This document shows positions 20,869 to 21,469 of a stretch of DNA of 64,000 bases, one piece after another (within the stretch, counting starts at the first letter, position 1; each line of letters starts with the position of its first letter). The translations under genes and the position numbers were made by a program. The notes under the pieces were generated by a model. That model saw only the letters and a list, made by a program, of their open reading frames with translations, did not search any database and was not told the origin of the DNA. Location: contig DAIDKE010000002.1 of assembly GCA_027450165.1 (NCBI GenBank), positions 1 to 64,000 on the forward strand. The letters run 5' to 3'. Source of the stretch: Candidatus Saccharimonadota bacterium (GTDB lineage: Bacteria > Patescibacteriota > Saccharimonadia > Saccharimonadales > Saccharimonadaceae).

Positions 20869-21469
20869 CGCTTCACACTGTTCACAAATTACTTTATGAA
20901 AACTGTGAAGCGGACAGAGGTAGTGTTCTTGGGTGGTATGATGCGGGGCGGACGTCATTGGCCGCCCCGCACCAGGTTGTGGGCGATCAGTGCACGAAGT
21001 AGCTGAGCGGCTTCGGCGTCTGGTGCTCACGCTCCATCGAGGCCACGTAGGCTTCGTAGGCTCTGGCGACCTTGATGGGATCGCCGGTCTTGGCAGCGTC
21101 GTAAATCCCCTGCTCCTGGTTGGCCAAGCTAATCACCCCCCTTCCGGGGTATCGAAGTTACCTAATAGGTCGGTCGTTCACAAAACCGTCGGGGGACGTC
21201 TTTGTACTCCGATTAGTTCGGTGAACGACCAGCTTGGTGGCTCCGCCGCAACATTTGCACCGGCTCGGAGTTCGGTGCGTAGTCCTCGGGGGTGAGGACC
21301 TATTTAGTTGTGTGTTGCGGCGGAGCCGTGACTCGCTAACCATGCCCACAGGGGGCAACGCGGTTAGGTCAACGAGCCATCCTGTCACTACCTCTGTCAA
21401 AGTGCCGACGAGGTTGTGAAATGCGGATACCAAAGCTTTGTTATCGGCGTTTCACAACCTCAAGTCAAC
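20869..21469 (-). ncRNA. Candidate large structured RNA with internal small ORF
   Basis: From a consensus minus-strand promoter the transcript would fold into: (1) a 5' hairpin, 12-bp stem 21461-21450 with 21421-21410; (2) a perfect 13-bp long-range helix, 21398-21386 with 20925-20913; (3) a CTCG-CTAACC-GCCC compound hairpin near 21379-21331; (4) a 15-bp stem (GGCTCCGCCGCAACA) enclosing two small hairpins; (5) a 10-bp stem GGTCGTTCAC/GTGAACGACC; (6) an ACCCC-GGAA-GGGGGGT hairpin covering the ribosome site of a 46-codon ORF; (7) a GCGGGGCGG stem after the ORF (20970-20943); (8) a 9-bp 3' hairpin CGCTTCACA/TGTGAAGCG (20912-20869) followed by TTTAAA. I do not recognise it as RNase P, tmRNA, SRP or 6S RNA. 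Confidence 0.6.
20987..21127 (-). CDS. Small ORF, 46 residues, within the structured RNA
   Basis: TTG start at 21127 preceded by GGAAGGGGGG at good spacing; a GTG 9 bases upstream is an alternative. The peptide begins MANQEQGIYDAAKTGD and ends PLSYFVH; it is soluble and mostly helical by composition, with no recognised family. Codons end in C or G (AAG, GAC, TAC, CTC), like the other isolated cassette genes. The ribosome site lies inside a short GC hairpin, so translation may be controlled by folding of the leader of about 340 nt. Too short for many gene finders. Confidence 0.6.
   Translation of the reverse strand: MANQEQGIYDAAKTGDPIKVARAYEAYVASMEREHQTPKPLSYFVH

Follow-up and report, generated by a model that had tools for sequence, protein, structure and literature searches.

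The window analysed here, a 64,000-nucleotide stretch of DNA, carries on its minus strand a member of an RNA family that recurs across related genomes, in which covarying helices frame a slot where unrelated small open reading frames (ORFs) are exchanged for one another. The family is undescribed so far within the open-licence literature and Rfam 15, and its members are probably end-clamped, protected mRNAs, each carrying an exchangeable small protein. A first-pass annotation of the window had described a large RNA with extensive structure, in which a long-range helix closes a domain of about 490 nt; this description is supported by strong covariation across relatives. The exchangeable ORF cassette, the fixed chromosomal position, the tRNA-like domains of some copies and the GC-ending codons of the ORF are features that are invisible in one sequence.

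Layout and folding of the locus

The minus-strand segment 21504-20869 looks like a self-contained transcription unit, composed of a promoter, P1, P2 and a terminator-like P3. The minus-strand promoter reported in the first-pass annotation is present at 21504-21476, with a -35 element TTGACA (21504-21499), a 17-nt spacer and a -10 element TATAGT (21481-21476), and is kept in the sister species. P1 is a 5' hairpin (21469-21404) that consists of a 6-bp outer stem, a UU bulge and a 12-bp stem. P2 is a 13-bp long-range helix, supported by covariation, in which a 5' strand (GACAGAGGTAGTG, 21398-21386) pairs with a 3' strand (CACTACCTCTGTC, 20925-20913), closing 486 nt. Enclosed by P2 are branch hairpin a (21379-21330, about 13 bp), where the sister species has no sequence conservation; branch hairpin b (21327-21239), whose 15-bp stem pairs 21327-21313 with 21253-21239 and whose position is occupied in the sister species by a stem of differing sequence; and branch hairpin c (21230-21172), a perfect 10-bp stem (GGTCGTTCAC/GTGAACGACC) in which the sister species has U-A in place of one C-G pair. 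A helix between CCAAGCT (21237-21231) and AGCTTGG (21130-21124) includes the first ORF codons and is partly retained in the sister species as CAAGC/GUUUG. P2 also encloses the 46-codon ORF of the earlier description, found at 21127-20987 downstream of the Shine-Dalgarno-like (SD) sequence GGGGGGTGAT (21141-21132); it has a TTG start and a TGA stop and encodes the 46-residue protein MANQEQGIYDAAKTGDPIKVARAYEAYVASMEREHQTPKPLSYFVH, of cargo family F1. A hairpin at 20974-20939 (GCGGGGCGG/CCGCCCCGC, loop CCAATGACGT) shows a compensated change in the sister species, and P3, the terminator-like 3' hairpin (20912-20869), has a conserved apex, CAUAA...UUGUG. The perfect stems of 12, 13, 15, 10 and 9 bp listed previously were all found. 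By sequence and synteny, the upstream neighbour is a UvrD/PcrA-like helicase gene (1095 aa, 24817-21530, minus strand), and the downstream neighbour is a tRNA-dihydrouridine synthase-like gene (dus; 320 aa, 20854-19892, minus strand), which starts about 15 nt beyond the end of the RNA.

The minus strand of 20869-21469 has a predicted folding energy of -286.3 kcal/mol versus -195.5 ± 7.7 kcal/mol for dinucleotide shuffles (z = -11.8). The complementary strand folds equally strongly (z = -11.5); because both strands fold well, the direction of the RNA was assigned from its promoter, its ORF and the terminator-like P3.

Comparison with the 4227 models of Rfam 15, including GOLLD, ROOL and OLE, at the required gathering score bore out the earlier impression that the RNA fits no known class: two distant tRNAs were matched in the window and nothing else, and only tRNAs were matched in 23 related loci. 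Below that threshold, the region contains a single match, to RsmW, which scores 35.8 bits where 52 are required and appears fortuitous. The true tmRNA and RNase P RNA of this genome lie elsewhere (G000:C1:357054-357457 and G000:C1:353893-354225, respectively). Searches of phage and plasmid records with the RNA and its ORFs (blastn and tblastn) returned nothing similar, the two pattern matches in IMG/VR scans were both due to chance, as was a 13-residue match of the ORF in Prevotella, and the publication on the TM7x transcriptome does not mention non-coding RNA.

Relatives, chromosomal position and covariation

By blastn, a single homologue was detected among 100 related genomes; it belongs to the one further species of the genus that the search included. 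The homologue occupies the same position, between the helicase gene and dus, and keeps the promoter and the stems, the latter with compensatory changes, while its ORF encodes a different protein. Covariance models reached further: model R1 (3' part) matched 27 of 395 genomes, R2 (5' part) matched 13 of 395, and R3, comprising the P2 3' strand and P3 and built from 27 sequences, matched 64 of 395 related genomes at E ≤ 0.01; the E-values of these models are approximate. Nearly all matches of R1 and R2 fall between the helicase gene and dus. Fifty-seven of the R3 matches fall in the window's family (f1) and seven, one or two of them weak, in other GTDB families of the order. No convincing R3 match beyond the order was obtained among 240 genomes drawn from the phylum; the one candidate, G499, is weak and lacks the neighbour genes. 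Among 19 R3-negative f1 genomes, where the helicase gene and dus still adjoin, the gap often keeps an SD-led small ORF.

Within f1, nearly all R3 matches share the order UvrD-like helicase-RNA-dus. Such an arrangement could be that of a cis-regulatory leader or attenuator of dus, with the tRNA-like parts as decoys for the Dus enzyme: the RNA ends just short of dus in the window, P3 is terminator-like, and Dus acts on tRNA. In the other families of the order, however, the RNA is flanked by pheT and an ABC transporter gene or lies beside other genes, which argues that it is not a dus leader; moreover, other small ORFs separate P3 from dus in some f1 genomes, and the cassette changes family while dus stays. 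We regard this reading as very improbable.

Individual loci show further variety. The neighbourhoods of L095 (G354), L096 (G294), L097 (G370) and L098 (G077), all from other families of the order, contain pheT/ABC-transporter genes or a cation antiporter-like gene. Two tandem elements, each with its own P2 and P3, occupy the helicase-dus gap at L035 (G024) and L038 (G110). At L022 (G150), L021 (G206) and L041 (G224), additional small ORFs, some with a strong SD and none assigned to a cassette family, lie between P3 and dus. L164 (G019) and L162 (G020) are minimal elements, in which a P2-like helix surrounds little beyond the SD and ORF.

P2 is present in 53 elements, usually as 12-16 bp enclosing roughly 270-960 nt; four unconvincing R3 matches (G093, G192, G144x and G239) were excluded from the helix table. 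In the 51 elements used for covariation (G014 and G182 were excluded from the set, and G104 from the counted alignment), all 13 pairs of P2 show changes on both sides and 97.2% of cells are paired. The covariation value was 0.640 versus 0.206, and every measure exceeded 500 of 500 shuffles and all slid versions. Because the P2 partners had been located for the alignment partly by complementarity, a separate permutation test was run in which the 5' strand was taken as the first ACAG[AG] downstream of the helicase gene, with pairing ignored; 203 paired positions were obtained, against a maximum of 197 in 20,000 permutations. P3 shows double changes in 16 of 17 pairs. The covariation analysis was confined to these two helices, since the interior branches vary too much to be placed in a single global alignment. 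Of the refuting outcomes named in the first-pass annotation, two were looked for, stems lacking covariation across homologues and a match to a known Rfam family; neither was found, P2 and P3 both covarying.

The outer parts of the element also recur. A P1-like 5' hairpin sits between promoter and P2 in most relatives, and the promoter pattern lies upstream of P1 in 36 of 53 relatives versus 3.7 expected. At least five T residues occur within 8 nt after P3 in 25 of 53 elements. Between P2 and the SD, folding is far stronger than in shuffled sequence (mean z -8.0, with 43 of 43 elements below -2), and the ORF folds slightly more strongly than synonymous shuffles (mean z -1.2).

Exchange of the small ORF and tRNA-like inserts

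In nearly every element the corresponding slot is filled by a single SD-led ORF, about 42-78 codons long, and the SD of most relatives is GGAGGTGA or longer, up to the full AAGGAGGTGATC. The hairpin over the ribosome site (CCCCGGAAGGGG) noted in the first-pass annotation exists in the window and the sister species but does not hold as a general feature, most relatives having plain GGAGGTGA. Because the SD hairpin is confined to the window and its closest relative, the proposal that leader folding gates translation finds no support as a general mechanism.

The cargo ORFs belong to at least seven unrelated protein families (F1-F7), sorted by eye and alignment, of which F6 and F7 rest on few members. 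Related ORFs of the window type, F1, occupy the same slot in G077 and G294 of another GTDB family; F2 is marked by an NAD(H/F)EA motif; F3 is Cys-rich with three subtypes; and F4, F5, F6 and F7 make up the remainder. Profile searches with F2, F3 and F4 recovered a single copy in each genome, almost without exception in this slot, and some of these genomes had been missed by the RNA model. Against Pfam, PHROGs and NCBIfam, the cargo proteins gave weak matches or none besides a zinc-ribbon resemblance and one match to phrog_2283, a family of unknown function; a PDB profile search of these proteins gave nothing useful. Two observations on the ORFs weigh against the carrier mRNA. Some elements have no recognisable ORF (G129, and element a of G110, in which a tRNA takes the place of the ORF), and counts of synonymous and non-synonymous changes are convincing for G185/G218 only (15 to 1), those of other pairs being near neutral or indicative of fast evolution.

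Codon usage sets the ORFs apart from their surroundings. Their mean GC3 is 0.74 versus 0.50 for the flanking helicase and dus genes, with the ORF higher in 39 of 41 cases, and shows no correlation with that of the genome (r = -0.08). In the window, the ORF has a GC3 of 0.87, whereas 49 long ORFs have a median of 0.54 and reach at most 0.72; an ATP synthase beta-like gene has 0.56. Possible causes of these GC-ending codons are recent import from GC-rich sources, selection acting inside the folded RNA, or translation by a GC-rich partner. The last of these would fit a putative exported carrier, a nuclease-resistant, ribosome-capturing mRNA that a GC-rich partner bacterium receives and translates. 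We consider export very improbable; if true, it would explain why the RNA is so heavily armoured, why its Shine-Dalgarno match is long, why the ORF favours GC-ending codons and why the cargo is exchanged in the manner of an arms race.

Mapping of the cargo family onto a tree of 61 Dus proteins requires about 35 switches, where the minimum is 8 and the mean for shuffled assignments is 41.3; the cargo is thus nearly, though not wholly, independent of ancestry. The sister pair G018/G161 illustrates the event: in the 120 nt that precede the start codon the two share about 89% identity, which is lost through the ORF and a short trailer, where the sequences are unrelated, and returns at the P2 3' strand. 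Comparison of the window with its sister species gives the same picture. These alignments display the precise replacement of a single ORF, from start codon to P2 3' strand, for which recombination between shared SD-side and P2-side sequence is our simplest guess.

Very fast in-place replacement by unrelated small proteins, together with the Cys-rich, zinc-ribbon-like members and the single copy per genome, recalls a polymorphic arms-race set (toxin, immunity protein, inhibitor or anti-phage factor), which the RNA would serve to express or silence, much as at toxin loci under RNA control. The proteins, however, match no toxin or defence family in Pfam or NCBIfam, look soluble and hydrophilic, and have no conserved partner gene in the locus, and we judge this reading improbable. 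Exchange of the content between the P2 strands, which are inverted repeats, would also be expected of a DNA-level mobile element or integron-like hotspot, the repeats being transposon ends and not RNA. That account hardly seems credible, given that the promoter and terminator-like hairpin are conserved outside P2, that P1 and P3 are situated outside the repeats, with covariation in P3, that nearly all genomes have one copy at one locus, and that no integrase or transposase was found beside the RNA in the window.

At least nine copies enclose tRNA-like domains, often with abnormal anticodon loops. ARAGORN calls tRNAs within P2 for 8 of 53 elements, and further ones in related gaps; the window copy has no such domain. 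The acceptor, D and T arms of these inserts are regular, whereas the anticodon arm is often irregular, which makes decoding unlikely as a common function. The anticodon loop has 8 nt in G130, G038, G077, G294, G152 and G036, and other odd sizes or inserts in G119, G032, G112 and G047; ordinary 7-nt loops occur in G051, G110 and G139. At loci L020, L023, L096, L098, L133 and L136, cloverleaves that are regular apart from 8-nt anticodon loops lie in the RNA or in the same gap. In G110, what one tandem element holds is a tRNA-Gly, not an ORF. L054 (G248) and L055 (G242) contain T-arm and acceptor-like sequence near the 3' end (GGGTTCGAATCCC...CGCCGCCA in G248), which suggests a degenerate tRNA-like domain, uncalled by ARAGORN.

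The carrier mRNA leaves these inserts unexplained, and so much structure would be needless for a merely coding transcript. The functional molecule may instead be an ornate RNA like GOLLD or ROOL, perhaps forming a multimeric particle, with the ORF and tRNA-like parts as passengers in a variable interior. Its size, its folding (z about -12), the conserved ends around a variable interior and the tRNA inserts that recall GOLLD keep this alternative standing, though we think it unlikely. Against it, there is no Rfam match, interior branches are unconserved even between sister species, the SD-ORF survives shrinkage of the RNA to almost nothing else (G019 and G020), and the locus is a fixed chromosomal one, not a phage.

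A candidate mechanism and known systems

The RNA has P1, P2 and P3 as its conserved core, with P2 tying the 5' leader to the 3' trailer. In the carrier mRNA that we favour, these helices together would lock both RNA ends while the folded branches hold the leader, and the strong SD inside P2 would recruit ribosomes so that one small protein is made. The ORF is a plug-in cassette, swapped in evolution from start codon to P2 3' strand, and the tRNA-like domains are a second, optional insert. That G019 and G020 are pared down to P2 around an SD-ORF argues for ORF carriage as the core task. We infer from this arrangement that the unit is transcribed and translated and that the RNA is stable, with the clamp protecting or presenting the mRNA, and that the encoded proteins have a function.

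To our knowledge, no bacterial RNA described so far unites a conserved, covarying scaffold, a slot of interchanging unrelated protein genes and optional tRNA-like inserts. The family provides a conserved RNA gene for a largely uncultivated, reduced bacterial order and opens a class of very small protein families largely missed by Pfam, NCBIfam and PHROGs. It also raises two questions: what allows one ORF to be replaced with such precision, and why the ends of an mRNA need locking.

GOLLD is the nearest likeness: it too is a very large folded bacterial RNA with a conserved and a variable part, its linker sometimes holds phage tRNAs, and it binds ribosomes in pull-downs, according to the sections of Kretsch et al. 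(2025; PMC12286853) drawn on here. In those sections, GOLLD is phage- or prophage-encoded and often near tRNA islands, whereas the RNA described here has a fixed host-chromosome locus. Other differences are the missing Rfam match, the long-range P2 between two terminal hairpins and the exchangeable SD-led ORF in nearly every copy. Homo-oligomeric cages characterise GOLLD and ROOL. ROOL and OLE are alike in size class and amount of structure (PMC12286853, same sections). ROOL is reported there from phages and prophages near tRNA islands; the present RNA has no match in Rfam, and the same sections describe no exchangeable ORF for either ROOL or OLE.

tmRNA likewise unites tRNA-like and coding parts in one RNA. 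Here, however, SD, start and stop all belong to the ORF itself, a tRNA-like domain is an optional addition, and the genome's tmRNA is separate. Dual-function bacterial RNAs are structured RNAs that also encode a small protein, and the RNA described here similarly joins structure and a predicted small ORF in one transcript, the predicted translation being supported by the strong SD and the recurring ORF families. In the dual-function cases known to us, one protein is conserved, whereas here the same RNA encodes now one, now another of several unrelated proteins. Integron gene cassettes are single genes exchanged at a fixed site; no integrase gene was found adjoining the RNA in the window, and unlike integrons, the present system has a single slot, whose boundaries are the SD/start codon on one side and a strand of an RNA helix on the other.
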